A stretch of DNA of 64,000 nucleotides from Sphingomonas sp. HDW15A (GTDB lineage: Bacteria; Pseudomonadota; Alphaproteobacteria; Sphingomonadales; Sphingomonadaceae), in contig NZ_CP049870.1 in assembly GCF_011301715.1 (NCBI RefSeq), positions 496,001 through 560,000 of the forward strand, given 5' to 3'. Each line of letters opens with the position of its first letter. The stretch's first letter is position 1. Both the position numbers and the translations under genes were made by a program. The notes under the pieces were generated by a model. The model was given only the letters and a program-made list of their open reading frames with translations. It was not told the DNA's origin and did no database searches. Shown here piece after piece: positions 49,922 through 64,000 of this stretch.

Positions 49922-50664
49922 CTACCTTGCCGCCTTTTCGCGAACTGTGTCTCCGAAAAAAGCGCAATAGCCGTTCACTGGGCAACTCTCGCACAAAGGC
50001 CTCGGCGCCTTGCACACGAGTGCTGCGAAATCGAGTACCGCCCAGTTCTTCTCACTCGGTCGTGGCCCCCTGACGAACCACCTCGCCGCGGCCTGCAGCC
50101 AAGGATCGTACCTAATGTCCGCGAGGCGTCGCGGCCGCACGACGCGCTCAATTACGCGCGCCATGTTGACATCTAGGAGCGGTGCAGCCTTGCCGTGCTG
50201 GAACAGGAGCACCGCGTTAGAGACGTATTGCCCACCGCCGGGATCGGTGCGTGCTCGACCGGGTTGGAGGGAAACTTGCCGTCGTTAGCCGCAGCATACT
50301 TGGCTATTCCGAGCAGTGAAGCCGCCCGCCGACGCCACAATCCCAGCGGTCTTAGAAATTCTTCTAGGTCCCCTGGGCTGGCCTCGGACAGCGCTTGCCA
50401 GCCGGGAAACCTTTCCATGAAAGCCGGGTAAAACCGCGAGACCGCCGCAGCGGTAGTTCGCTGTAGTAACACCTCGACGACGATCTTCTCGTATGTGCTC
50501 GCCTCGTCAGTGCGCCACTGGTACTCGCGTCCGTTCGTCGTCCACCATCGCGCCAGGTCACGCGATAGTCGCGTTAGCTTTTTCTTCTCTGCCGGGGTTA
50601 GCGCGTCGGCCGAGCCTGCGTACTCAAGCTTGAGGGCCACTTTCGCTGTTTCGGGTGCGACCAT
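49922..50664 (-). CDS. HhH-GPD base-excision DNA glycosylase with 4Fe-4S site, interrupted by a one-base frameshift
   Basis: The corrected product is about 247 residues. The first part has LARWWTTNGREYQWRTDEAS, VVEVLLQRTTAAAVSRFYPA and PLGLWRRRAASLLGIAKYAA, which is MutY/Nth-like. After the break (CCC at 50231-50233, one base short) comes the equivalent of VGQYVSNAVLLFQH, then LLDVNMARVIERVV with the catalytic Asp, and a C-terminal iron-sulphur set CKAPRPLCESCPVNGYC. It lies 11 bases downstream of a restriction endonuclease and after a cytosine-C5 methyltransferase. This recalls the G:T mismatch glycosylase (Mig) coded with a restriction system in Methanothermobacter. I infer that it repairs 5-methylcytosine deamination. 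Confidence 0.78.
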
Positions 50665-50675
50665 TGCTCCAACGC

Positions 50676-52049
50676 TTAAGCGGCGAGGTCAAAGTCCAGC
50701 GGCGACTTGAAAAGGAGGGGCAGGTCCGATTGCCTGATCTTGAACAGGTAACCCTGATCCTTCGCCGTGCCGGTCTTCGTCTCCTTGATCGTGTAGTCGA
50801 GGGTGATGACGCCCGCTTCGAGCAACATCGGCAGCCTCGCCTCGCTCACGCCCGACGTGTACCTCGCCGCTACGTAATGGAACTTCTCCGCGGCGCCGGT
50901 GCCCTGCGTCTCGGCCTTAACCCAAAATGTTTGCCCGTGCTTTTCTGCTAAGCGCGCGAAGAGCTTCTCGAACTTCCACGTCGCGTCCCGGACAACGCTA
51001 GTGCCGTCGGTCCACGACTGGTGCAAGAAGTCGTTGCCATCGACCTCGAGCAACAGCCCATAGCTGTTACAAGTCGACGCGCACATCTCGTGGAAGAGCT
51101 GGTTTCGCCCCTTCTTCTCACTGAAGCGACCCCGTTCGCGGAGGATGTCGGCCGATCCTTTTAACCGGCTGATGCTCCAGTCCGGAACCTGCGAGAGGAT
51201 CGTCGTTCGTCCCCGCTCATGCGATCCCTTGCGGCCGGCCTTGATCTCGATGCCCTTGTAATCGGGCGCCTTGCTGCTGTTGCACCTGATACCGAGCAGG
51301 CTTTCCAACGTGAAACCAACGCCCGTGTCGCCTGGTCTCAAGGTCGGCACGAAACCGCGTGAGCCCACCGATTTCAGCATGGACAACAGCTCGAGCGCCT
51401 CTTGCGACAATGTGCCCGGTTGAGTTGAGCGCCCTGGCTGCTCCTCTGCCATCGCTAGTAATGGCGAGGGCGCTGCTTGGCTGCTTGGACACGAAGTGTA
51501 GCCAAGGAGGATCTCGGTCGCCTCGGCCGCGCTCATCCTCGCCAGGATCTCGGGCGTAGGCCGCTCGGAACTCCACGCGCGCCAGAATGGGGAAGCGCGA
51601 TTGTCGAGTAGGGAAGGGAGATCACTTCTCGACGTGTTTACAACTAGCAGCTTCTTGCCGGCGGCGCATATCGCCAGCAGGTCCCCGGGCCCAGCGAACT
51701 TCGCGAGCGACCCGAACCAGATTCGAGGATCCCCCTCCTTCGCGTTCGGTCGGTACAACGACGTGCTCGTCTCGATCACCTCCCCGCTCGAAAAGAGAAC
51801 GGTGTCGATTAGAACCTTGGAGTCGCGACCCTGCAGTTGACCCGCGTAGTCGTGGATTCCTTGCTCGCGAAGCCACGCGCGCACGCCATATGTCGCGTCC
51901 ATGATCGATTTCTCGAGGCCGGTGGCGGTGGGTACTATGAACGCGCAGTCAATCCCGTGATCCGCGAAGACACGCAGGGTCGCGGCGACGTCGCGGTTGG
52001 ACGAGCTCAACACGAAGTCCGCTCCTGAACGATGGCGGCGAGTCGACAA
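50676..52049 (-). CDS. MvaI/BcnI-family type II restriction endonuclease
   Basis: The protein has up to 457 residues. The C-terminal half carries the family pattern FVPTLRPGDTGVGFTLESLL, then APDYKGIEIKAGRKGS, containing the PD...E-x-K catalytic residues, then later VSEARLPMLLEAGVITLDY. MvaI and BcnI cut CCWGG and CCSGG as monomers. The N-terminal half (ATLRVFADHGIDCAFIVPTA, then a beta-rich segment) is unrecognised and may be a recognition or regulatory domain. TTG 52049 has no ribosome binding site; GTG 52013 has GGAG eight bases upstream and is a good alternative start. It lies between a C5 methyltransferase (64-base gap) and a DNA glycosylase. Confidence 0.82.
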   Translation of the reverse strand: MSTRRHRSGADFVLSSSNRDVAATLRVFADHGIDCAFIVPTATGLEKSIMDATYGVRAWLREQGIHDYAGQLQGRDSKVLIDTVLFSSGEVIETSTSLYRPNAKEGDPRIWFGSLAKFAGPGDLLAICAAGKKLLVVNTSRSDLPSLLDNRASPFWRAWSSERPTPEILARMSAAEATEILLGYTSCPSSQAAPSPLLAMAEEQPGRSTQPGTLSQEALELLSMLKSVGSRGFVPTLRPGDTGVGFTLESLLGIRCNSSKAPDYKGIEIKAGRKGSHERGRTTILSQVPDWSISRLKGSADILRERGRFSEKKGRNQLFHEMCASTCNSYGLLLEVDGNDFLHQSWTDGTSVVRDATWKFEKLFARLAEKHGQTFWVKAETQGTGAAEKFHYVAARYTSGVSEARLPMLLEAGVITLDYTIKETKTGTAKDQGYLFKIRQSDLPLLFKSPLDFDLAA

Positions 52050-52113
52050 GCGGTAAACAACTGGCTCATCCCGCCCTGCTAGCGGGCAGACGATCTACGT
52101 GTCTACGGTGGCG

Positions 52114-53484
52114 TCACTTGTCCGCAACGGACTCCTCAAGGATGCGCTTGAAATGTCGACCGACGCGCTCCGCTAGGCGGACCGGCACCGCGTTCCCAAT
52201 TTGCGTATACTTCGGTACCTCGCGGTCGAAGTTTCCTTCACGTGGATTGCCAGCGCGCCGGAGGCCGCCCGTCGTTCGCTTGCCTTCGAACCGGTACCAG
52301 TCGGGAAATGTTTGTAACCGTGCCCATTCGCGCACCGTGAGCGAGCGTGGCTGCGCGTAATGCACGTAATCGTCCGGCAGCGATGTCGCCGTGATACTAG
52401 GCGGCTTGTTGCCCCACCTCTTGGGGAGCACTCGTTGTGCAAATTTTTTCGTGCGCGCGTATTCCGGGATCTCGCCCTCGTTGTCTATCATGTGCCGGAA
52501 CTTCTTCACGATGTTGGGGGCATGCTTGGAGTACTCGTGGTCCGTCACTTCACCTGGGCGCCTATGCTCGTGCTTTGGCGCCGGGACCCGCATAGCCCGT
52601 TGTTCCCTCGTGGTGGCCTTTCCCGGATAACTGTTGGTCGCGAGACGGCCCGGCGGGTAGACGCCCGTGGCGAAGTACTTGTCCATTTCCGGGTCCACCA
52701 AGTCATCGAGCAAGTCGATCAGGTCTGGGCACTCGGAGGGTTCACCCTTCGGCAAAAAGCCGCACTTGACCGCGTCCTCCAAGTCCGCCTCGAGATCGAG
52801 CAGGGGGTTGTCGAGAACGATGTCGTCGCGGATGCCGACAAGTAGGACCCGCGGCCGGTTCTGCGGGACTCCGTAGTCGCCGGCGCGGACGAGTGTCCAG
52901 CGCACCTGATAGCCGGGGATATTCCGAAACTCGTCCCGAACGTCGTCCCAGATCCGGTGCTCGCCGTCCCTAGTCCACTTGGAAGTTAGTAGGCCGCGCA
53001 CGTTCTCGAAGAGAAAGATCCTCGGTCGCAATCGTTGGATGATGGCGGCCATCCGCTGGTAAAGTTGGTTAGATGGCAGGTCTTTCTTGTCGACCGAGTA
53101 GGACCTCCGGTGACCAATGCCCGAGTAGCCCTGGCACGGCGGTCCACCAGCTAGTAGGTCGAGGGTACTACCACCTTTTCCCTTCTTTGCTTCCTTTTCC
53201 GAGGGGAACTCAAGGCCAATAGCCTCGAGGTCTGCGACCATTTTCTTGAGACGATCGCCCTGGAGCTCGTGGGCATCGTGGCAGCGCAGGTGTGCCTGTT
53301 CGGCGAATGGCTTTCCACCCACGACGTGGTGCCGGTTCGCTAGGTACGTGGCCATCGCGTGCTCGTTGAGCTCGTTGACGAATACCGGCGTGAAGCCCGC
53401 GTTTTCCATCCCGAGCGAGAGCCCGCCGCAACCGGCGAAGAGGTCGATCATCGTCAAGCTCATATCGTCGCTCATGGTCCGCAC
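52114..53484 (-). CDS. DNA cytosine-C5 methyltransferase, candidate DrmMII-like enzyme
   Basis: The 456-residue protein has the standard motif order: I MIDLFAGCGGLSLGMENAGF, IV GGPPCQGYSGIG with the catalytic Cys, VI FLFENVRGL, VIII QNRPRVLLVGIR, a variable recognition region, and IX-X ending IGNAVPVRLAERVGRH. GTG 53484 is preferred because AAGGA lies six bases upstream; ATG 53475 is possible. It starts the leftward unit methyltransferase-endonuclease-glycosylase and faces the DISARM-like operon across a 285-base divergent region. It may therefore protect host DNA from both. Confidence 0.9.
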   Translation of the reverse strand: MRTMSDDMSLTMIDLFAGCGGLSLGMENAGFTPVFVNELNEHAMATYLANRHHVVGGKPFAEQAHLRCHDAHELQGDRLKKMVADLEAIGLEFPSEKEAKKGKGGSTLDLLAGGPPCQGYSGIGHRRSYSVDKKDLPSNQLYQRMAAIIQRLRPRIFLFENVRGLLTSKWTRDGEHRIWDDVRDEFRNIPGYQVRWTLVRAGDYGVPQNRPRVLLVGIRDDIVLDNPLLDLEADLEDAVKCGFLPKGEPSECPDLIDLLDDLVDPEMDKYFATGVYPPGRLATNSYPGKATTREQRAMRVPAPKHEHRRPGEVTDHEYSKHAPNIVKKFRHMIDNEGEIPEYARTKKFAQRVLPKRWGNKPPSITATSLPDDYVHYAQPRSLTVREWARLQTFPDWYRFEGKRTTGGLRRAGNPREGNFDREVPKYTQIGNAVPVRLAERVGRHFKRILEESVADK

Positions 53485-53769
53485 TAATTTTCCTTAAACA
53501 TCTCTTGCCGCGACCATGGCCGGTAGTCACGACGAAGTCCAGGGGGTTTTGCCTCGATCTCAGAATTTCCCGGTCCCGGGGCGCAAGTGCGCTACCCTCA
53601 TATCTCGAACCACGGCAGCGAAAGCGTCAGATGCCAAGCCCTCCAATCAATAGTCGGCCAATGACCGTAAAGACCTGCAGGGTTGCTCATCGCTAAACCG
53701 CTACTTAATAAAGTCTCGCCAAGCCTTGGGGCGTGTTTTCATGATGGCTTGGCTTGTTGGGGGGCGAAA

Positions 53770-55404
53770 GTGAGGCTTGTACCGTCGCAGGTGCTGAACT
53801 GTGAATCCGCGGCGGAGCGGACAATCTTCGGGTACCTAGCTGAAATTGGCTTTAGCTCATACGACATCGGGCTCCATTCACTGAACATTGGCCACCACGA
53901 GTACAAGCGTTGGGGAGAGGCCGATTTTTTTATCATCAGCCGCCGGGGAATACTTCTCCTGGAAGTGAAGGGTGGGCGCGTCGCCTGCAAGGACGGCATT
54001 TGGGAATTCACTAACCGAAACGACGAGACCAGCCGAAAAAGAGAAGGACCAGCGGAACAGGCCAAGTCCGCATACTTTTCCCTTGAGAAGAACTACCTAC
54101 ACCCAAAGTTCTACCGGGAATTAAAAGGCGTTCCTTGCGGCTGGGCTGTCGTGTTCACCGATATACCAAGGTTCGCAAGCGACGGGTCGACCTTGTTGCC
54201 TGAACATCCAGACGAGATCACGGCCTACGAAGAAGATTGCAAGGGACATAATAGCTTCAGAAAGTTCCTCTCGGGTGCCTACGACCACTGGGCGTCGAAA
54301 CAAAGGAACCCGGTCGATCTCCCGCCCGAGATTGTTAGGGCTATTGCGAGCTCCTTGCGCCCCAACTTCGAGCAGGTCCCGTCTCTAAACAGCCAGCTAC
54401 GCGAGGTAGAGCAAAGGCTCTACCAGTTCACAGACGAACAGTACGAGAAGCTCGACGCGATCTCCGAAAACGACCGGATACTCGTCACCGGTGGCGCCGG
54501 CACGGGGAAGACTTTCGTTGCCGCCGCTTGCGCTCGCTACGAGGCCGCGGAGGGCAGGTCCGTGCTCTTCATCACCAGGAGCCATTACCTTGCCACGTTC
54601 CTCGCGAACCAGGGACTGCCGGACGACGTCACGGTCATGACCATCGAGGAGTTGCCGCAGTCCCTAGATAACGGTCAAAAGTGGGACGTCGTGATCGTGG
54701 ACGAGGGACAGGACCTCTGTTCGTTAGAGTGCCTCGACCTGGTTGACGGCGTTCTCGAGGGAGGGTGGGAACGGGGCCGGTGGCGCTGGTTTGGCGATCC
54801 GAATTACCAGGTATCCCCCAGCTTTCCCGTCGACCAGGACTGCCTTGACTACTTGAAGAGCCACGGGGTTGCCACTTCCCTAAAGAACAACATCCGCAAC
54901 GCTGGAAAAATCGTCGAGGCCATCAAGCTTCTCGCGGGCGCCGACGTTGGCAAGCCGAGTAGCCGGCCCGACAGCGGCACGGTCGATCTGCAGCTGGTCG
55001 AGAACGAGAACGAGATCTTGCCAAGAGCTGCCTTAGCGGTACGCAAGTGGTTGAGCGATAACGATGAGTTGCAGCGCAACTCCATCGCTCTTCTCGTCTC
55101 CAATCGCACCGACGCAGAGAAGGCAGTCGAGCTTCTCTCGGCGAAAAGCGTGCGAGCAGAAACACTGAGCAAACGAGCATTGGGGGGCAGTCCACGCGAC
55201 TGCGTCCTCGTCGCGACGGTCGAGGATTTCAAGGGATTGGAACGACCTCTTGTCTGCGTGGCCGGCCTTGGCGCCCGGGAATTCGCTTCAAGCGCATACA
55301 AGGCGATCTCGCGTGCCAACCACGCCTTGGTACTTGTGGCCACGCGAAGCTCGGTTGCCGAGCTCACCGAGAAAGCTGCTTCGGGTGGAGCAGGGGGAAA
55401 TTGA
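53770..55404 (+). CDS. NERD-domain SF1 (UvrD-like) helicase, first gene of the DISARM-like operon
   Basis: The 544-residue protein begins VRLVPSQVLNCESAAERTIF, followed by a NERD nuclease-related domain (EYKRWGEADFFIISRRGILL, LEVKGGRVACKDGIW), with the D...E-x-K residues of the PD-(D/E)xK fold. It then has SF1 motifs: Walker A VTGGAGTGKTFVAAAC (about residue 240), Walker B VIVDEGQDL (about 313), and a UvrD C-terminal signature (VATVEDFKGLERPLVCV, AISRANHALVLVAT). GTG 53770 follows GGGGCGAAA and gives the family start; the frame is open 29 codons upstream. drmA begins one base after its stop. Confidence 0.83.
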   Translation: MRLVPSQVLNCESAAERTIFGYLAEIGFSSYDIGLHSLNIGHHEYKRWGEADFFIISRRGILLLEVKGGRVACKDGIWEFTNRNDETSRKREGPAEQAKSAYFSLEKNYLHPKFYRELKGVPCGWAVVFTDIPRFASDGSTLLPEHPDEITAYEEDCKGHNSFRKFLSGAYDHWASKQRNPVDLPPEIVRAIASSLRPNFEQVPSLNSQLREVEQRLYQFTDEQYEKLDAISENDRILVTGGAGTGKTFVAAACARYEAAEGRSVLFITRSHYLATFLANQGLPDDVTVMTIEELPQSLDNGQKWDVVIVDEGQDLCSLECLDLVDGVLEGGWERGRWRWFGDPNYQVSPSFPVDQDCLDYLKSHGVATSLKNNIRNAGKIVEAIKLLAGADVGKPSSRPDSGTVDLQLVENENEILPRAALAVRKWLSDNDELQRNSIALLVSNRTDAEKAVELLSAKSVRAETLSKRALGGSPRDCVLVATVEDFKGLERPLVCVAGLGAREFASSAYKAISRANHALVLVATRSSVAELTEKAASGGAGGN

Positions 55405-55405
55405 A

Positions 55406-58400
55406 ATGCTAGGTAGGGACAAGGTTCTCAAAGAAGCGCGAAACCGGCTTATCGGGCCGGGCCTAGGGAGCCCCGGGCCAAGCGGCACCCATGACGACGA
55501 GATCATCGAAGGTCGCATGAGCCTGGCATACATGATGGGGATGCTCTTCCCCCGGGCCAAGCGGTCCGCGAATGACCTCGGTGGAGACGAGGCTGAAGCT
55601 GCGTCGGACGAAGATGCAGAGGATCCCCTCAGCATGTCGAATGCCATGCTTCCGTCCGCCATCGGTACGTCATTGTGCATCGCCCGTGGAAGCAGGATCA
55701 GGATACGCGTCGACGCCGCAATCTATTCGCCACTCCCGGTGGAGAAGAGCGCCGGTGGTTCGGATGAAGGTGCGTCGTCAAAGCAGGTCACTGTCGAGGC
55801 GACTCCCAGCGCAGACTCGCAAGCGGGAGATGTCGCTGTCGCGACAACCCCAGTTGAAACTGAAGAGCGCGCTAAGCAAGACAAGCCGATCCAACGATGG
55901 CAGCGTTGCCAACTAGAGCAATCCAATAAAGAGGTAGACACAGCAGGGCTCGAGCCGACCCCGGTTCTCGAAGGGCGCGCGATCCTCGAGGTTCTTTCGA
56001 GGGAACTCCCTAACGGTGACGCCCTCCTGACGGTGAGCGTATCTAACACGGGCGAGGCCCGGAACGCCAAGTCCAGCGAGGAGACTCTTTACCAAGTATC
56101 GATCTTGGCCGAGCCCGTCGAAGGTCGCATTCTCAAGTACCCGTCGGCCAGATACGTGCCACCGACAGACGAAGAGCGTGAACTTCGTGTTATTTATGGC
56201 CAGCAGAGGCCATACGCTGTCGGGCACGGCGTTGCGGCCGATTGGAAGATAGATGATGGTCGATGCGCTTGGGTCAAGACAGAAGCGCTCCCGACTGCAC
56301 ACGTCTGGCGGCCAGACTTCGATAACTTATCGCTAGCGGAGAACGGGTCCCGCCTAGTCTTCCCGGACGAGGAACTTTTCAAAGTCGCGCCCCTGGCTAG
56401 CGGCGAGCTCAGCGGTCCTGAGTTAGTTACGAGGCTTACCGGACTGGTCGACTTCTACGAGAAGTGGATCGAGACCCAGGCCAAGATCTCGATAGACGAG
56501 GAGTTGGCGGACGACGCCGAGAGAATGTTAGGGCGATGCCGCCGCAGCGCGGATCGTATGCGACAAGGCGTCGAGATTCTCCGCGATGAAGATACTGCTC
56601 GGTGCTTCAGGCTAGCCAACCAGGCCATGCTAATGGCCATGTCACACGCGACGCGAGCGTCGGGGCGCGGCCGTCAGGATGGCCTGCAAGGCCCATTTGA
56701 GCTTGGAAAGGCCGACACTGACCCAATCGATTATCTCGCAAACGATGCGAAGTGGCGCCCGTTCCAGCTTGCCTTCTTTCTACTCGTACTCCCGTCGTTA
56801 GCGGGAGACGAGCTGCCCGATCGGGACCTCGTGGACGTCATCTGGTTTGCTACCGGTGGCGGCAAGACTGAGGCATACTTGTTCGTCTCGGCGTTCGAGC
56901 TTTTCCGACGGCGGATCGTCGAGCGGAAAGCCGGCGGTGGGACAGGGGTGATCAATCGCTACACGTACCGGTTCCTGACCGCCGACCAGTTCCAGCGAAC
57001 CGCCGGAATGATCTGCGCAATGGAGATGATCAGGCGAGAGTTAGCTACGAAAGGCGACACGTCCCTCGGTGACGAGGAGTTCTCGATCGGCCTTTTCGTC
57101 GGCGGAGAAGTAAGCCCAAATTCCTTTGCTGGTAGCGAGGACGGGGCCCTCGGCCGGACACAAGAACTATTCGACGCGGCTAACCCTCGTGACGCGAATC
57201 CCTTTCCAATAGAAAGTTGTCCCGCATGCGGCACGTTGCTGGTCCCCGAGAGCAGGAAAACGAAGCCCGACGGTAGCCCTGACGAAGCATATTACGGCTT
57301 CCTGGCCACGGCCAATAGCTTCGTTACTAGGTGCCCCGAGGAAGACTGCGCTTTTCATGGCGGTTTGCCCGTCTACTTCGTCGACGAGCAGTTACTCAGA
57401 GCGCCACCCTCTTTTCTGCTGGGAACAATCGACAAGTTCGCGATGATTCCTTGGAAGGAAAACGGGGGCGCCTTGCTGGGCGTCGGAACCGGCCGATCAC
57501 CCCCGTCGCTAGTTATCCAAGACGAGCTTCACCTGATATCTGGTCCACTCGGCACCTTGGCTGGAATTTACGAGGCCGCGTTCGAAACGCTAATGTCCGC
57601 GGGCGGCACCCTCCCGAAGGTGATTGCCTCGACCGCGACGATAAGGAACGCGTCAGTGCAGTGCCGCAGGATATACGGCCGCCCCTCTGCAGTTTTCCCG
57701 TCGCCCGGCTTGCGAGCCGAAGACTCCTTTTTCTCGAAACTCGATACGGGCAACAAAAACCGTTCTCGGCTCTATGCCGGCGTTATGGCCCAGGGGCTTC
57801 GCGCGACCGTCGCCGCCTCGTGGACAATGGCGACGCTCCTCCAGTCCTCGTACGAGCTCGCGGAAAAGGGCGATCTTACGGAGGACGAGACGGATTCTTA
57901 TTGGACGCTCGTTGCTTACCACAATAGCAAGCGGGAGCTCGGTCGGATCGTCAATGCTACTCGCGACGAGATTCCCACGAGGATGAAAGTCTATGCCTCG
58001 GACGAGCCATTTGAGCGTCCCTCCAATTTCGATGTCCTAGAACTCAAGGCGCATGCTGAGACACCTGTCCCGAGAGCCAGGCAGCTACTGGCTCGACGTC
58101 ATAGTGCGGAACAGCCCGCAATTGACGTGGTGCCTTGCACGAACATCATCTCCGTGGGGGTCGACATCGATCGGCTGGGCCTGATGATGGTCAATGGCCA
58201 ACCTAAGCTCAGCGCGGAATATATCCAGGCAACGAGCCGCGTGGGCCGTGGCAAGGTTCCTGGGCTCGTCGTTGCGGCCTATTCACCGAGCAAGCCGCGG
58301 GACCGATCACACTACGAGGCATTTCGCGATTACCACGAGCGCTTCTACAGCTTCGTGGAGCCTACGAGCGTGACGCCGGGCGCTTTGCCAGCGATTGAGC

Positions 58401-58804
58401 GCGGCCTCCATGCTGCGCTCGTGACCGTGGTTCGGCACGGGGCAGGCTTACGAAAGAATTCAGCCGCGAAACAATTCAATCCGTCACTGCCCAGGGTCGC
58501 GGCGGCGATCGAACGCCTCGAGCAACGACTATTGGATGCCTACAACGGCGAGCAAGAGGCCGAGGAACGCGAGCGCATCTCGAGCAAACTGGCCGAAAAA
58601 GTGGCGGAATGGGCTGGCTGGGCCGAGGCCATCGAAGGGCTCCAGTATTGTTTCGCGAGCCAGCAAAGGCGGCCTCACCTGTTGGTTCGCTATGGAAACA
58701 AGAAAATCGACGGTGCCGGCTGGCACACGCTGCAGTCGATGAGACACGTCGACAAGGAAATCACGCTGGAGGACGTCGGCATTGCCCAAGCCAAGCATTC
58801 GTAG
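55406..58804 (+). CDS. drmA: DISARM-type helicase DrmA
   Basis: The 1,132-residue protein has an unrecognised N-terminal region with a disordered acidic insert. The helicase part shows VDVIWFATGGGKTEAYLFV (Walker A, about residue 484), a zinc-site pair CPACGTLL and CPEEDCAFHGG, LVIQDELHLISGPLGTLAGI (DExH, about 704), ASTATIRNA, and VSVGVDIDRL-like C-terminal motifs ending YIQATSRVGRGKVPGLVVAA with RDRSHYEAFRDYHERFY. DELHLISGPLGT and the YE.FR.YHE.FY segment are typical of DrmA. It overlaps drmB by 23 bases. DrmA is a core subunit of the phage-defence system DISARM. Confidence 0.88.
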   Translation: MLGRDKVLKEARNRLIGPGLGSPGPSGTHDDEIIEGRMSLAYMMGMLFPRAKRSANDLGGDEAEAASDEDAEDPLSMSNAMLPSAIGTSLCIARGSRIRIRVDAAIYSPLPVEKSAGGSDEGASSKQVTVEATPSADSQAGDVAVATTPVETEERAKQDKPIQRWQRCQLEQSNKEVDTAGLEPTPVLEGRAILEVLSRELPNGDALLTVSVSNTGEARNAKSSEETLYQVSILAEPVEGRILKYPSARYVPPTDEERELRVIYGQQRPYAVGHGVAADWKIDDGRCAWVKTEALPTAHVWRPDFDNLSLAENGSRLVFPDEELFKVAPLASGELSGPELVTRLTGLVDFYEKWIETQAKISIDEELADDAERMLGRCRRSADRMRQGVEILRDEDTARCFRLANQAMLMAMSHATRASGRGRQDGLQGPFELGKADTDPIDYLANDAKWRPFQLAFFLLVLPSLAGDELPDRDLVDVIWFATGGGKTEAYLFVSAFELFRRRIVERKAGGGTGVINRYTYRFLTADQFQRTAGMICAMEMIRRELATKGDTSLGDEEFSIGLFVGGEVSPNSFAGSEDGALGRTQELFDAANPRDANPFPIESCPACGTLLVPESRKTKPDGSPDEAYYGFLATANSFVTRCPEEDCAFHGGLPVYFVDEQLLRAPPSFLLGTIDKFAMIPWKENGGALLGVGTGRSPPSLVIQDELHLISGPLGTLAGIYEAAFETLMSAGGTLPKVIASTATIRNASVQCRRIYGRPSAVFPSPGLRAEDSFFSKLDTGNKNRSRLYAGVMAQGLRATVAASWTMATLLQSSYELAEKGDLTEDETDSYWTLVAYHNSKRELGRIVNATRDEIPTRMKVYASDEPFERPSNFDVLELKAHAETPVPRARQLLARRHSAEQPAIDVVPCTNIISVGVDIDRLGLMMVNGQPKLSAEYIQATSRVGRGKVPGLVVAAYSPSKPRDRSHYEAFRDYHERFYSFVEPTSVTPGALPAIERGLHAALVTVVRHGAGLRKNSAAKQFNPSLPRVAAAIERLEQRLLDAYNGEQEAEERERISSKLAEKVAEWAGWAEAIEGLQYCFASQQRRPHLLVRYGNKKIDGAGWHTLQSMRHVDKEITLEDVGIAQAKHS

Positions 58805-60640
58805 CGGCCAGTTGATTAGCCCTTTCGGGGTGGGCTCGCTCTGCGAGATCGACGGCCAATCTTTCTTCGTTCGCGGAACAGGCAGTTGGCCAAGAGGCTA
58901 TAACCTCGAGAAAATCGAGGTTGGCTCGCTTACCAACCGAGTGAGGCCGCGCCAGCTCAAGAAGCCCATGGAATCCGTTGCCATAATGCGTTTCCCGCAT
59001 TGGCACTTCTGCCCCGAGTGCCGGCAAATGACGAGATGGACGCCGGACAAGGACAAAGAGCTGGCCAAGGACGATGGCACGCTGCCGCGACCGACGTGCG
59101 ACGGGCGCAAGTGCAAGAATGCCCGCCTAGTCCCAATGCGATTTGTCGCAGCCTGTGACAACGGGCATTTAGACGAAATCGATTGGTACGGGTGGGCTCA
59201 CCGCGGACACCAGCCCGCGAAACAGGGAACATGCGCCCGGAACACCGCGAGACTCAGCTTCGAAGTCTCTGGAAAGAGCGGTGGCGACTTTTCGAGCATG
59301 TTTATCCGCTGCAGCTGCGGTGCCTCCGGGGACCTAGAGGGGATCGCAGACGGTCCGCTCCCACAAAAATGCCGCGGGTACCAACCTGGAGAGTCTACCG
59401 CGACTTGCATTGATGCTGACAACAAGAGCAGTCCCGGCTCACCTGCGCCGCTTTTCATGGAGCCGAGGGGATCCAGTTCCCTGCACTACGCCTCGGTCAT
59501 TTCAGCGCTCGATATCGACGGAGACGCGCACGTGGATGCGTGGGAAAAGCTGCGCTCCGATGAAATCTATCGCAACCTGGTCCAATCGGCTTCAAACCTC
59601 GTCGAATTCAACAAGGGCGACACCAGCGTCGCGGTGCAGGCGTTTCGTTTAAACGTTGAAGCACGTGGCCAAGAGGTGGGATTGCCTGCTGACGAAGCCA
59701 TTGAGTGTTTTACGGCCGACATCTCCGCTCGAGATGATGAGGGGTCGGAGAATTCGATCGATGAAATTAGCCAACAGGGGATCCTCGACGACGAATTCCC
59801 GGTTCTGGCTAACCCCACGGGTCAGCAGTCGCGCTGGCTGATTGCACGCCCCGCCATGCCGACCTCGCGCTTTAAACTCGACGAGCTCTTCGATCGCTTT
59901 GTAAGGGTCGAGAGGCTCCGCGAAGTGCGGGCGTTCCGAGGCTTTCAACGGCGAAACGTCTCGGAAAAGCATGCGATGATCTCCCCCTCTCTGGGGCGCG
60001 ACCAACCTGACTGGCTCCCGGCCATGATGGTCCTCGGAGAAGGTGTATTTCTCCAGTTCTCAAACGCGGCGATCGAGAAGTGGCGCACAGAGAACAAGAA
60101 GGCGATCGAGGAGTTCACTGATTCCCACCTGGTAAATTCCGAGAAGCTGGGTCTCCCTTCGAGGATGGGCTTCAACGCGAACCCGACCTTCATCATGGTC
60201 CACACTTTTGCGCACTTGCTGCTGAACCAGTTGTCCTTTGACTGCGGTTATTCATCGACCTCGCTCAGGGAACGCATTTATTGCGGCACGGACTCAGAGC
60301 CTTATGCTGGCCTCCTCATTTACACGGCGGACTCGGACGCGGAGGGATCGATGGGGGATTGAGCGAGATGGGCGCCCCGGAGAGATTGGAAGACGTCATC
60401 TACCGGGCAGTGTCCCGGAGCCAATGGTGCTCGGGTGACCCGGTTTGCCGTGAACTCGACGCCCAAGGCATTGACGGGCTTAATCGCGCTGCTTGCCACG
60501 CGTGCTCATTGGTTGCCGAGACGAGTTGCACCTTCTCGAATATTCTTCTCGACCGGGTTCTTGTCTCTGGCGATGGCCGGCAGAACGGTCGAGGCGTAAA
60601 CGAACCAGTTGGCTATTTCAGCCAGGTACTGGAGGTCTAG
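58782..60640 (+). CDS. drmB: DISARM-type DUF1998 protein DrmB, interrupted by a one-base frameshift
   Basis: The corrected protein is 619 residues. It starts MPKPSIRSGQLISPFGVGSL and has several cysteine sites (HFCPECRQMT near residue 76, ACDNGHLDEIDW, IRCSCGASGDLEG). The C-terminal DUF1998 part has FIMVHTFAHLLLNQLS, DCGYSSTSLRERIY and LLIYTADSDAEGSMG. At five G (60353-60357) the frame ends early (stop at 60362). One added base gives GGLSEMGAPERLEDVI and the usual DrmB ending with WCSGDPVCRE and ACHACSLVAETSC. It overlaps drmA and is followed two bases later by the next helicase gene. DrmB is a DISARM core subunit that forms a complex with DrmA. Confidence 0.88.
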
Positions 60641-60642
60641 GA

Positions 60643-61932
60643 ATGCGTTTCCCATCCTATAGCGACTTGGACCGCGAACAGCGCCGCATATACGGGGAGG
60701 CGCCGGGCGACGGCGCCATTCTCGTTGTCGGACCGCCCGGCACTGGCAAGACGGTGATGGCCTTTCATCGCGCGCAGAAGCTCCAGAAGCTGGGGCAGAA
60801 GCCACACGTGATCATGTTCAACAAGGTTTTGGCCAAGTACACCTCGACCCGCTCGAACGTGGCACCAGATGTCGGCGTCAGTACGATGCATTCCTGGGCT
60901 AATAGTTGGTGGCGCGCGGCTACTGGTGCCCGGATACCTAATGTCGCCGATGATCGCTGGACCCACGATTGGAACGAAATCTGTGCGAGGGCCCTCAAAT
61001 CTTGCCACGAGGGCAGAGCAGCAGGGTTGTCTTGGGGTCATCTAATTGTCGACGAAGGCCAGGACTTCCCGCCGCAGATGTACATGGCGCTTGGAATGAT
61101 TCTGAAGCAGCTGGAAGCGACAGGTGTGTCAGCTCAGGTTACGATCTTTGCCGACGACAACCAACGTCTCCAAGCTGATCGCAACAGCCGCATAAAAGAC
61201 ATCCGGAACAACCTGCTAATTTCCGGGACAGCTGAGCGAAACTTCGTCCTGAAAAAGAACTTTCGGAATACTCGGCCAATTGCCGAGTTTGCTCGACATT
61301 TCCAGGTCGGCAATGAAAGCGGGATCTCGGAGTTGCCGGACGCGGATGGTGAGCATCCCGAGGTGATCTTCGCTTTGAACGACCGTGACATCGCCGACTT
61401 CATAACCCGCAAGGCAAGGTTGAATCCGGGAAAGCAAGTCGGGGTCATCGTCTACGGCGGGAAGCGCGAGGTCCAACGGGCCTACAACCAGGTGAAGTCG
61501 CGTCTCGAGGGAGTCCGAAAAGCTCCTCGTTTGCAAATGTACCTCAGCAAGGACAAGAAACATACCGAAGATGCGCTAGATTTTGATAGCGGCAACACGA
61601 TTACGTTCCTGCATTGCCAGTCCGCTAAGGGCCTCGAGTTCGACATCGTGTTCTTCCTTGGAATGGAAGCCATGAGCGTTGATACGTCGGGCTTCCTGAA
61701 TGAGCGAATGGCTCTTTATGTCATGAGCTCTCGCGCTCGCTCAGAACTTTATCTTGTCTTCAAGGATATCGATCCGAGGGCAGGGTTGCCTGCTTCTTCG
61801 AAGCTCCTTCCACGTCCCTCCAGTAAGTTGTGCCGATACGTCGGGCTCGGCTCGCTCGACCAAAACATCGGTGATTTCCAAGACATGATTGAGGCCAACG
61901 ACAATTTCCACGAAATGGAGGCGGCCGAGTGA
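60643..61932 (+). CDS. SF1 UvrD/DUF2075-like helicase of the DISARM-like operon
   Basis: The 429-residue protein has Walker A VVGPPGTGKTVMAFH (about residues 27-41), Walker B LIVDEGQDFPPQMY (about 135), FADDNQRLQ, KKNFRNTRPIAEFA (motif IV region), and a C-terminal ITFLHCQSAKGLEFDIVFFL with VMSSRARSELYLVF. No nuclease domain is evident. GGAGG precedes the ATG, drmB ends two bases before it, and its stop overlaps the GTG start of the next gene. It is not one of the named DISARM subunits, so it may be a system-specific addition or replacement. Confidence 0.8.
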   Translation: MRFPSYSDLDREQRRIYGEAPGDGAILVVGPPGTGKTVMAFHRAQKLQKLGQKPHVIMFNKVLAKYTSTRSNVAPDVGVSTMHSWANSWWRAATGARIPNVADDRWTHDWNEICARALKSCHEGRAAGLSWGHLIVDEGQDFPPQMYMALGMILKQLEATGVSAQVTIFADDNQRLQADRNSRIKDIRNNLLISGTAERNFVLKKNFRNTRPIAEFARHFQVGNESGISELPDADGEHPEVIFALNDRDIADFITRKARLNPGKQVGVIVYGGKREVQRAYNQVKSRLEGVRKAPRLQMYLSKDKKHTEDALDFDSGNTITFLHCQSAKGLEFDIVFFLGMEAMSVDTSGFLNERMALYVMSSRARSELYLVFKDIDPRAGLPASSKLLPRPSSKLCRYVGLGSLDQNIGDFQDMIEANDNFHEMEAAE

Positions 61933-63551
61933 CGGACGAGAAGCGCACGCTCGAGCTGGACTTCGAGGCAAGGGAGAGTGGCGTTAGCACTTCATGGGAG
62001 CTTCTCGTTCCGATGCATCTCGACAATTTCGCACTGGCGTTGGCATCCGGGTACATTGGCGGTTCTTTGAAAAAAGACGCCGCGCAGGACATCCAGTCAT
62101 TGGTCGGCGAAGGCGTCGTCGGGTTCATCGAGATAGTACCCAGTTGGGCACTTACTGAGGGAGAGCCGGGGGACAGGGTCATCGCCGTAATCCAACGAGA
62201 GGGACCTTCGCCAGCGCAAGGCCAGCCAGAGCTCTGCGCGGGGCCGATTAGGATAACCCAAGTCAAACGCGCTTACTTCAAGGATGACGCTTCACTTGCC
62301 AACTTCGTCGCTTCTTACGACGCCTTTCCGGACGTCGCTACGAACTTGGTCGACAAAGAAGTCAAATGGCCTTCCGGCGGAGACGCGGAACGCCCGGATG
62401 GCCTTGATTTTAAGCCCCTCCTGGGAAAAGCCGGGCGAGCGGAACTTGATTTCTTCGGCGGCCTTGGAGCGGGCGTCCTCGCCCTTCTGGCGGGCAGCGA
62501 GCTGGACGATGCGCTTCTCAGTTTCCTGCAAGAACCCGGGCGTGGCGTTGCAGAAAATGCTCGCAATTTGCTGCTTGCGCTCGAGCCGCGCTCCTCCAGT
62601 TTCGACGTTACCATCTGGAGTGTTGCGGTCGAGGCACTACGCAGGCGGTTCGGAAAAAAGGGATTCGATCGCCGTGAGTTTCTGGCGGAGATCGAGGGCA
62701 GCGTGGTTGGCTTCGGCCCGGAGGCTGATGCCTGGCTGAAAGGTTGTCAGAAAGTCGTCGACGCCGAGATCGACATTCCGAGCCTCGCTGATAATGAAAA
62801 GATCGGCCGGAGGGCCGCGCTGGCCGTCATTCTCTTGCACGACCCTTCGAGTTTGGACGAACTCGAGGACAACCTCGAGGCCGGGCCGATGGTCCGGGCG
62901 CTTGTCACCGCGGCGGTGTATGCATTTAATGGACTTTCCCGCGCCGACGAGGGGTTGAAGACCCCTGCGGCCCGGATGGATGCGGCCCTCGAGATTGGTG
63001 AGCAGCTTTTAGCCGGCAATCCGGTGAACGTTGAGGTCGAGACGAGCCGGATTTCAACTGACCTTTCTCGCCATCAACTGGTCAACATCGCCGGCAAGAA
63101 GGCACTTGAGAAGGTTGTCGAGCCGCCTGCATACCTGGTCATGCTCAAGGCAAGGATCCAAGAAGCCGGCTACAAGGTGGGACTCGACGCGGCGTCTGGT
63201 CGGATCGGAATCCGGTCCGGCAAGGCCAACGACGAGCTCATAATAGTGGAGCACTGTCGGCGCTCGACACCTGCAAACCCGATCGTGAACCTAGTTCTCC
63301 CCATTTCGGCCCTGGGGGCCCGGCCGAGCGTGGCCGCGCTCAAGAAGTTAATGTCGACGGCTTGGGAGCACGGTACCGCTGTCGCGCTGCGGGAAGTCGA
63401 GGGCGTAGAAGAAGTGGTAGCCTTGGCAAGCCTGCCACTTGCCACACTTGACCGCGACGAACTGAATTTTCATGTCGAACGCTTGCTCCTGGTTTTCGCC
63501 GACCTGGCTGGAAGGCCGAAAAAAAGCCGACGCGTGAGGAAGGCAGCCTAG
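61929..63551 (+). CDS. Unrecognised 540-residue protein of the DISARM-like operon
   Basis: I recognise no family. The first 110 residues look beta-rich (ELDFEARESGVSTSWELLVP, FIEIVPSWALTEGEPGDRVI). The middle (about 150-370) is helical, with segments such as FFGGLGAGVLALLAGSELDD and FGKKGFDRREFLAEIEGSVV. The C-terminal 150 residues (VMLKARIQEAGYKVGLDAAS, LVLPISALGARPSVAALKKL, ELNFHVERLLLVFADLAGRP) might be a small alpha/beta domain. There is no nuclease, helicase or membrane signature. Start GTG overlaps the preceding stop (GTGA), so it belongs firmly to this operon and is a candidate regulator, adaptor or effector. Confidence 0.8.
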   Translation: MTDEKRTLELDFEARESGVSTSWELLVPMHLDNFALALASGYIGGSLKKDAAQDIQSLVGEGVVGFIEIVPSWALTEGEPGDRVIAVIQREGPSPAQGQPELCAGPIRITQVKRAYFKDDASLANFVASYDAFPDVATNLVDKEVKWPSGGDAERPDGLDFKPLLGKAGRAELDFFGGLGAGVLALLAGSELDDALLSFLQEPGRGVAENARNLLLALEPRSSSFDVTIWSVAVEALRRRFGKKGFDRREFLAEIEGSVVGFGPEADAWLKGCQKVVDAEIDIPSLADNEKIGRRAALAVILLHDPSSLDELEDNLEAGPMVRALVTAAVYAFNGLSRADEGLKTPAARMDAALEIGEQLLAGNPVNVEVETSRISTDLSRHQLVNIAGKKALEKVVEPPAYLVMLKARIQEAGYKVGLDAASGRIGIRSGKANDELIIVEHCRRSTPANPIVNLVLPISALGARPSVAALKKLMSTAWEHGTAVALREVEGVEEVVALASLPLATLDRDELNFHVERLLLVFADLAGRPKKSRRVRKAA

Positions 63552-63575
63552 TGGGGCGGAGCAGAGCGCATCTCC

Positions 63576-64000
63576 GTGGCACGAACTAGCCTTACCCACC
63601 CCCTTGAGATCGCAGCCATCCAGGCTGGCGAAGGGCTCGGCCGCATCGGGCTGACCTTCTGCCCGGGGAAGGTGCAACCGAACGCCGTCTCAGGTTCGTG
63701 GGAGCGGGACTTGAACGTTGATCTCGACGCGGTCGAGGCCTGGGGGGCAGCGGCCGTCGTTACACTGATCGAGCCTGGAGAGATGGCGGCGCTCAAGGTT
63801 GAAGCGCTCGGTGAGCAGGTCGCCAACCGTCACATGACTTGGTTCCACTTACCCATCCCTGACGTCGGCATTCCGGGTGCGCAGTTCGAGTCCAGCTGGG
63901 CTGCCGCTGGGGAAGCCCTCCGCGCGCTTATTCGCAGCGGCTTCGATGTCGTCGTCCATTGCAAAGGCGGCTTGGGGCGCGCGGGAATGATTGGCGGTCG
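63576..64000 (+). CDS. Dual-specificity/tyrosine phosphatase-like protein, cut by the window end
   Basis: From GTG 63576 (preceding in-frame stop at 63549-63551) 141 codons are visible: VARTSLTHPLEIAAIQAGEG, then ERDLNVDLDAVEAWGAAAVV, an acidic general-acid-like loop HLPIPDVGIPGAQFESSW, and VVVHCKGGLGRAGMIGG. The last contains the CX5R active site (HCKGGLGR, about residue 127) of cysteine-dependent phosphatases, close to the CDKN3/dual-specificity group. The gene lies 24 bases after the unknown gene in the DISARM-like operon. GGAG is about 14 bases before the GTG, longer than ideal. The C-terminus and possible fused domains are outside the window. Confidence 0.75.
   Translation, partial: MARTSLTHPLEIAAIQAGEGLGRIGLTFCPGKVQPNAVSGSWERDLNVDLDAVEAWGAAAVVTLIEPGEMAALKVEALGEQVANRHMTWFHLPIPDVGIPGAQFESSWAAAGEALRALIRSGFDVVVHCKGGLGRAGMIGG

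Follow-up and report, generated by a model that had tools for sequence, protein, structure and literature searches.

How DISARM-type helicases separate self from foreign DNA is unsettled. A cassette that in most cases retains a C5-cytosine methyltransferase (MTase), but not always the same one, and that stands beside a separable restriction unit makes this question testable, and such a locus was analysed here in Sphingomonas sp. HDW15A (genome label G000). The window, which was the whole stretch of 64,000 bases under analysis, covered bases 496001–560000 of the 2.34-Mb single-contig genome. An earlier note on this DNA had described a C5 MTase, an MvaI/BcnI-family endonuclease and an HhH-GPD glycosylase that faced a drmA–drmB operon over 285 bases. 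The named genes were all present and formed two opposed units, but the gene directly opposite the MTase encoded a NERD-helicase, so that drmA was second. The rightward operon had five genes, which encoded the NERD-helicase, DrmA, DrmB, a UvrD-like helicase and a 540-amino-acid (aa) protein. The locus was read, with a probability of about 55%, as a composite defence island in which a complete type II restriction-modification unit was coupled to a five-gene DISARM-like cassette. It is plausible that one methyl mark would shield the cell from both the endonuclease and the cassette.

The arrangement was repeated in G492, a genome from another genus of the same family. The HhH–MvaI–MTase genes were divergent from the five-gene cassette, and all eight genes were found in the identical order. 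The identities to the window were 51–62% for HhH, 39% for the endonuclease, 63% for the MTase, 80% for the NERD-helicase, 78% for DrmA, 78% for DrmB, 74% for UvrD and 64% for the 540-aa protein. Hence, the window arrangement was considered to be more than chance. The 540-aa protein (X family) was found at high score in 2/397 genomes of the family, which were G000 and G492; a third match (1.6e-4) lay in an unrelated-looking gene. In an Acidobacteria metagenome-assembled genome (L025), an MTase of the same subfamily, an MvaI gene (38%) and a Vsr gene lay beside NERD-helicase–DrmA (40%)–DrmB–UvrD–X in a different layout. Moreover, a Roseovarius contig (L170) carried UvrD (49%), X (31%) and the start of an MTase (83% over 23 aa), which left the family after the 23 matched residues, ~120 bases short of the contig end. 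No endonuclease was found in the Roseovarius draft genome, where an empty answer shows little.

Table 1. Features of the locus in window coordinates. The starts of the NERD-helicase, DrmA and the UvrD-like helicase were chosen among in-frame starts.
Feature	Coordinates	Strand	Evidence
TmtA-like protein, sacsin-type ATP-binding N-terminus + RadD/ResIII-like superfamily 2 (SF2) helicase, 1603 aa	45015..49826	+	PADLOC TmtA 8.6e-51; NF047352 66 bits vs cut-off 50
HhH-GPD glycosylase, Mig.Mth-like, split in two frames (50173–50664, 49922–50212)	49922..50664	-	PF00730 6.8e-11
MvaI/BcnI-family type II endonuclease + extra N-terminal domain of ~190 aa	50676..52049	-	PF15515 2.4e-52
C5-cytosine methyltransferase (MTase)	52114..53484	-	PF00145 2.6e-56
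Divergent intergenic region, 285 bases	53485..53769	.
NERD nuclease-like domain + superfamily 1 (SF1)-like helicase	53770..55404	+	PF08378 2e-6; AAA_30 4.3e-9
DrmA-like YprA-family helicase	55406..58804	+	PADLOC DrmA 2.5e-187
DrmB (DUF1998), split: first frame to 60362, last 93 residues in other frame to ~60637	58782..60640	+	PADLOC 1.4e-48
UvrD-like helicase	60643..61932	+	PF13538 4.8e-8
540-aa protein, fifth in cassette (X family)	61929..63551	+

The linkage was also explored from the side of the cassette. The best 80 of at least 589 DrmA-encoding stretches in genome contigs were surveyed with a seven-row query alignment. Genes within 10 kb of DrmA were called as C5 MTases when they matched a home-made profile (E < 1e-10) and had an ENV-like motif. 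Such a gene was found in 42/80 loci with the looser motif and in 35/80 with the stricter motif. By cassette type, the counts were 8/8 for class 2 (with DrmE), 9/11 for TmtA, 15/25 for NERD+UvrD, 4/7 for NERD only, 2/18 for UvrD only and 4/11 for the others. Many contigs were short; with long flanks only (at least 6.5 kb before and at least 9 kb after DrmA), the counts in the same order were 5/5, 7/9, 12/16, 1/2, 2/17 and 3/6. C5 MTases were further found near four of seven plasmid DrmB matches (hand-picked from 54 records) and in 4/7 regions from the seven further genomes that gave a DrmA match among 337 of the Alphaproteobacteria. In the annotation of the class 1 DISARM plasmid controls, a C5 MTase stood within ~10 kb in 4/11; the profile missed that of L143 and gave 0/1 for L142, which was not class 1 by the 10-kb rule. 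Because a C5 MTase belongs to DISARM operons (DrmMI and/or DrmMII; PMC9142583), and the profile found one in 3/10 class 1 controls, the earlier claim that no described system combined the three activities was too strong. Proximity of a C5 MTase to drmAB is a known feature of DISARM, frequent in DISARM at large and hence not special to the window cassette. Searches of the open-licence literature found neither the window cassette nor its combination with a type II unit described. Linkage to an MvaI-family gene within 10 kb of DrmA was rarer than MTase linkage and occurred in 1/80 loci (L025), as well as in the window, G492 and Photobacterium damselae pdp3. The sister of pdp3 on the DrmA tree, a Photobacterium TY1-4 plasmid, carried EcoRII-C, a C5 MTase and Vsr instead of the MvaI-family gene.

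The endonuclease beside the window MTase had the MvaI/BcnI fold and a D..ExK active site. It matched R.MvaI at 5.3e-8 over residues 219–441, and its active site read PDYKGIEIK. The structural model (predicted local distance difference test score, pLDDT, of 87.8) matched the folds of MvaI (2oaa, 1e-13) and BcnI (2.3e-13) about equally well, with no others below 0.001. An N-terminus of ~190 residues (window 51480–52049, minus strand) was mostly modelled with high confidence and lay beyond the length of the MvaI/BcnI match. The fold-match length fitted the C-terminal domain alone, and residues 1–190 were thus without a match. A total of 1173 homologues was retrieved at 0.001, the window's own included; hence, the endonuclease was regarded as a common enzyme.

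The window MTase was the sole PF00145 gene found in the G000 genome. Its nearest solved structures were 3g7u and M.HaeIII, and it scored 54 bits against the PRK10458 cytosine-methylase subfamily, for which the cut-off is 710. The subfamily of the window MTase had six further members, namely L011 (68%), L015 (65%), G745 (64%), G492 (63%), L025 (52.5%) and the Roseovarius fragment. Relatives were found in two of 72,556 plasmid records at 1e-60 and, at 1e-80, in one of 97 genomes from the family of Roseovarius. No member occurred in the other 336 of the 337 genomes of the class (limit 1e-30), where three matches of 35–41% (1e-44 to 1e-48) fell outside the subfamily. In a test for separate histories of the unit and the cassette, a single clade of the window and G492 MTases was not rejected (approximately unbiased, AU, p 0.131), and the grouping of the window with L011 and L015 without G492 gave p 0.042. 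A phage origin was considered and set aside: neither the IMG/VR candidates nor, at 1e-40, the phage records yielded a relative of this MTase; 19 IMG/VR contigs carried DrmA. In the five relatives of full length, residues 241–400, the expected specificity region, shared 53–58% identity with the window MTase, against 56–70% in the core. This similarity is consistent with a common target site, and the window MTase and these five relatives may share one. The earlier note had argued for a CCNGG-type mark, given that MvaI cuts CCWGG, BcnI cuts CCSGG and DrmMII of class 2 DISARM is reported to modify CCWGG; a shared motif of this kind is at most a candidate here. Word counts over 94 kb (seen/expected) were 121/138 for CCAGG, 131/144 for CCTGG, 139/139 for CCCGG and 164/152 for CCGGG, without a clear signal. 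The Serratia DISARM motifs given by Bravo et al. (PMC9142583) differ from CCNGG. MvaI_BcnI, EcoRII-C and Vsr genes have been reported near C5 MTases and two-component-like genes (PMC8011034).

The third gene of the unit was read as a probable T/G mismatch glycosylase standing in for Vsr. The intact L011 homologue had Mig.Mth as its best PDB match (1KEA, 2.9e-18), and the MutY matches were 3.4e-12 or worse. V45 and Q182 of MutY are held to determine adenine specificity, whereas Mig.Mth has A50 and L187 at these sites and Y126 for MutY S120 (PMC2714593). According to the alignment, the glycosylases of the window, L011 and G492 had A at the V45 site, W at the Q182 site and Y at the S120 site. The window glycosylase accordingly shared with the Mig.Mth type the absence of both MutY residues and the Tyr for S120. 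The 1KEA match and the A/Y at the Mig.Mth A50/Y126 sites point to the T/G mismatch type. A MutY-type adenine glycosylase was set aside in favour of Mig on the ranking of the PDB matches and the key residues. For a reading as a restriction glycosylase, PMC10273834 did not contain the words HhH or helix-hairpin-helix. In the survey, Vsr was present in 22/35 loci with a strict-motif C5 MTase versus 6/45 other loci. A Vsr-like gene stood near the C5 MTase in L025, L027, L030, L036, L037 and L060, and an HhH gene was beside it also in L026 and L085.

The class of the cassette was evaluated by gene content and DrmA phylogeny. The DrmA family profile A1 matched the DrmA of PDB 7s9v at 2e-263, and DrmB passed NCBIfam DrmB_fam (279 bits, cut-off 240). 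The window DrmA scored 803.7 bits, under the NCBI equivalog cut-off of 950. No DrmC phospholipase-D nuclease was found in the ten scanned window frames, nor within 10 kb of DrmA in the related loci (0/80); the one-sequence DrmC profile recovered DrmC in 5/11 class 1 control records, the same five that were annotated with it. DrmD had no match at 1e-60 in G000, and DrmD and DrmMI were absent from the ten scanned frames. No DrmE was found in the operon or these frames, in which the C5 MTase was present. Neither of the two components defined in PMC12458937 was among the matches listed for the ten frames (for the MTase, the best 25 of 59). The DrmA tree had 107 rows chosen by likeness to the window and was built by a fast method under LG+G4 and rooted at its midpoint; the NERD+UvrD labels of G492, L024 and the window, which carries TmtA as well, were assigned by hand. 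All 14 class 1 rows and eight others stood together on one side, with a support of 94 in the Shimodaira–Hasegawa-like approximate likelihood ratio test (SH-aLRT). Seven of the nine class 2 rows were in one nine-row group, and L079 and L123 were elsewhere. The window fell in a 64-row clade (SH-aLRT 100) that held all NERD+UvrD, TmtA and UvrD-only rows and zero class 1 or class 2 rows. Since rows were picked by likeness to the window, the size of this clade is uninformative, whereas the exclusion of both DISARM classes from it is informative. The 11 TmtA-type rows formed one clade (SH-aLRT 100). The nearest subclade (SH-aLRT 86, unstarred) comprised nine rows: the window, G492, L024, L026, L025, L029, L030, L036 and L060. 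Eight of the nine had a C5 MTase within 10 kb, those of L030 and L036 by the looser motif only, and the ninth, L024, had an MTase start on the separate contig L170. The operon is thus not DISARM proper, because DrmC, DrmD and DrmE were not found in it, and its DrmA was below the equivalog cut-off and lay outside both class groups. Class 1 DISARM, class 2 DISARM and ARMADA were rejected as system names on gene content and the DrmA tree.

The reading of a coupled island was weighed against that of two independent defence systems side by side, in which the MTase guards against its own endonuclease only and the cassette works without it. Independence is a real possibility, though we lean away from it. 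Several observations weigh against coupling. The three relatives found through the MTase all lacked drmAB (0/3): L015, a Phaeobacter plasmid, and G745 carried the MTase and MvaI, and in L011, an Alisedimentitalea plasmid (L172:8778-22597), DruF2 (2.3e-105), DruE2 (E 0) and a NERD-helicase lay upstream of MTase–MvaI–HhH. The four linked cases (the window, G492, Roseovarius and L025) were found via the cassette or were the window itself. Independent travel of the unit and drmAB, which the earlier note had named as refuting its proposal, was therefore observed for the unit, which occurred without drmAB in L015 and G745 and beside Druantia II in Alisedimentitalea; the repeated linkage that it had named as support was kept in G492, L025 and Roseovarius L170. 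Moreover, 16 UvrD-only loci of a Streptomyces-rich clade had no C5 MTase within 10 kb (0/16), nor had five loci of the NERD+UvrD type (L082, L083, L091, L093 and L094; 0/5, some with short flanks). The association of the NERD-helicase with the C5 MTase on the tree, with 11 independent pairs, was not significant. The controls for the C5 MTase counts were class 1 DISARM and cassettes without a C5 MTase. Clustering in defence islands could yield the same linkage picture, and this island holds further defence genes (three ThsB-like TIR genes and the TmtA-like gene). DrmB and the glycosylase were, in addition, each spread over two frames in the window assembly. Independence is opposed by the same MTase subfamily, which accompanies the cassette in three layouts across two phyla, and by a C5 MTase at 9/9 of the nearest DrmA subclade when Roseovarius L170 is counted for L024. 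Given that these MTase relatives lacked drmAB and that the linked cases were cassette-found or the window itself, the dependence was read as running one way: the cassette tends to retain a C5 MTase, and the restriction unit can do without the cassette.

The frame breaks, which affected two of the eight genes, also bear on a decay of the system in this strain, which would leave a working restriction unit alone or nothing. The G492 counterparts were open in one frame (DrmB 620 aa, glycosylase 228 aa), and each matched the window pieces in two frames. Decay was nevertheless judged improbable. The remaining six genes were open, and short G runs, a frequent site of sequencing errors, were at or near both breaks; hence, either a sequencing error or a very recent mutation is possible. 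The glycosylase pieces aligned to positions 7–133 and 134–217 of PADLOC PDLC03398. Over 93 residues, the DrmB piece beyond the break, with the conserved cysteines inside it, shared 94.6% identity with DrmB of G492; this argues that selection was active until very recently. An ordinary class 2 DISARM whose DrmMII retained an old endonuclease partner is very improbable. DrmA, DrmB and a C5 MTase were present, and the PADLOC DrmMII model matched the MTase at 6e-49; the type II MTase model PDLC03234 scored better (4.2e-74), neither DrmE nor DrmC was found, and DrmA was inside the 64-row clade without class 2 rows.

In the coupled island, the C5 MTase would mark the chromosome, and the MvaI-family endonuclease would cut DNA without the mark. 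The Mig-like glycosylase would repair T/G mismatches from 5-methylcytosine (m5C) deamination, like Vsr in the sister loci. DrmAB would load on unmarked DNA, perhaps at endonuclease-generated ends, with the NERD and UvrD-like helicases assisting in the processing of this DNA; the cassette would rely on some resident C5 MTase. In Serratia, unmethylated DNA stimulates the DrmAB ATPase and m5C DNA dampens it, DrmA V1296 contacts a base, and 5' overhangs are preferred (PMC9142583). V1167 of the window DrmA (numbered from 55250) aligned with Serratia V1296 and was invariant in the seven-row alignment; the class 1 relative L147 differed. The m5C-lowered ATPase and the retained valine make a shared m5C mark plausible. 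Class 2 DISARM protects against modified phage too (PMC9142583), which suggests that more than the mark is involved. Because the cassette appears to need a C5 MTase and the unit is independent of the cassette, the unit may act as an exchangeable mark-and-cut module that is also used by Druantia II. In the model of the 540-aa protein, the N-terminus was DarT-like, the middle ARH3-like and the C-terminus of a secretion-chaperone/YbjN fold. A tentative extension, which is probably not correct as a whole, is a mark-sharing plug-in. A complete type II unit, made up of a C5 MTase, an endonuclease of the MvaI type and Vsr or Mig, would supply the self-mark for different YprA-helicase cassettes (a third DISARM-like class or Druantia II), one mark would license two attacks, the cuts would feed DrmAB, and the DarT-like fifth protein would add an ADP-ribosylation arm. 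If this is true, restriction-modification units would provide larger helicase systems (DISARM-like, Druantia) with self-marking as modules that can be swapped for one another.

Further genes were found around the two units. The TmtA-like gene is a neighbour whose membership in the cassette is uncertain. TmtA–NERD-helicase–DrmA–DrmB was contiguous in several actinobacteria; TmtA had no match in the fetched G492 stretch and was therefore not counted as a fixed part. The gene after that of the DarT-like protein, from window 63576 onwards (L004:4576-6072), encoded a protein whose N-terminus was phosphatase-like (own reading) and whose C-terminus resembled an ADP-ribosylarginine hydrolase (NF041672, 351 bits vs cut-off 490). 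Three ThsB-like TIR genes were in tandem beyond the window end (L004:11685-14059, G000:C1:566685-569059; PADLOC ThsB 2.3e-63, 5.3e-60 and 1e-82). No tRNA was found in G000:535001-590000. Among the related loci was one of an uncultured Erythrobacter (L030:17809-23068), in which DruH (Druantia III, 1.2e-156) separated the DISARM-like cassette from a pair of C5 MTase and Vsr genes. A HATPase_c_3 protein (MORC-like by own reading; PADLOC REase_II 4.9e-37) lay between Vsr and the cassette-side C5 MTase in Hymenobacter (L027:18386-20533). The drmAB loci L019, L023 and L037 carried a C5 MTase with McrB-like and DUF2357 genes.

The locus was compared with known systems. It shared with MvaI/BcnI-type II units the endonuclease family, the active site and the set of an MTase, an endonuclease and a mismatch-repair gene. 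M.MvaI and M.BcnI are N4 MTases, whereas the window MTase was a C5 enzyme, and the window endonuclease carried an extra N-terminal domain. Among the Mig.Mth and Vsr genes next to C5 MTases, of which the Mig.Mth plasmid unit is GGCC-specific, the window glycosylase was nearest to Mig.Mth (1KEA) and occupied the Vsr place of the sister loci, but its frame was broken. DISARM classes 1 and 2 had in common with the window DrmA, DrmB and a nearby C5 MTase, and the m5C-sensing valine was retained in the window DrmA. The window differed in its lack of DrmC, DrmD, DrmE and DrmMI, in its NERD-helicase, UvrD-like helicase and X protein, and in a DrmA outside both classes. Druantia type II (DruE, DruF and a cytosine MTase) was similar in that a kindred MTase–MvaI–HhH unit adjoined DruF2–DruE2 in Alisedimentitalea, whereas in the window DrmA and DrmB were encoded separately and belonged to the DISARM branch. 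Operons that combine McrBC with a DISARM-like system and with MTases have been reported, with their description deferred (Bell et al., 2024, PMC11090510). In these combinations (Bell et al., 2024, 2025), a YprA-like helicase cassette is likewise joined to another type of restriction, whereas its partner in the window was a type II unit.

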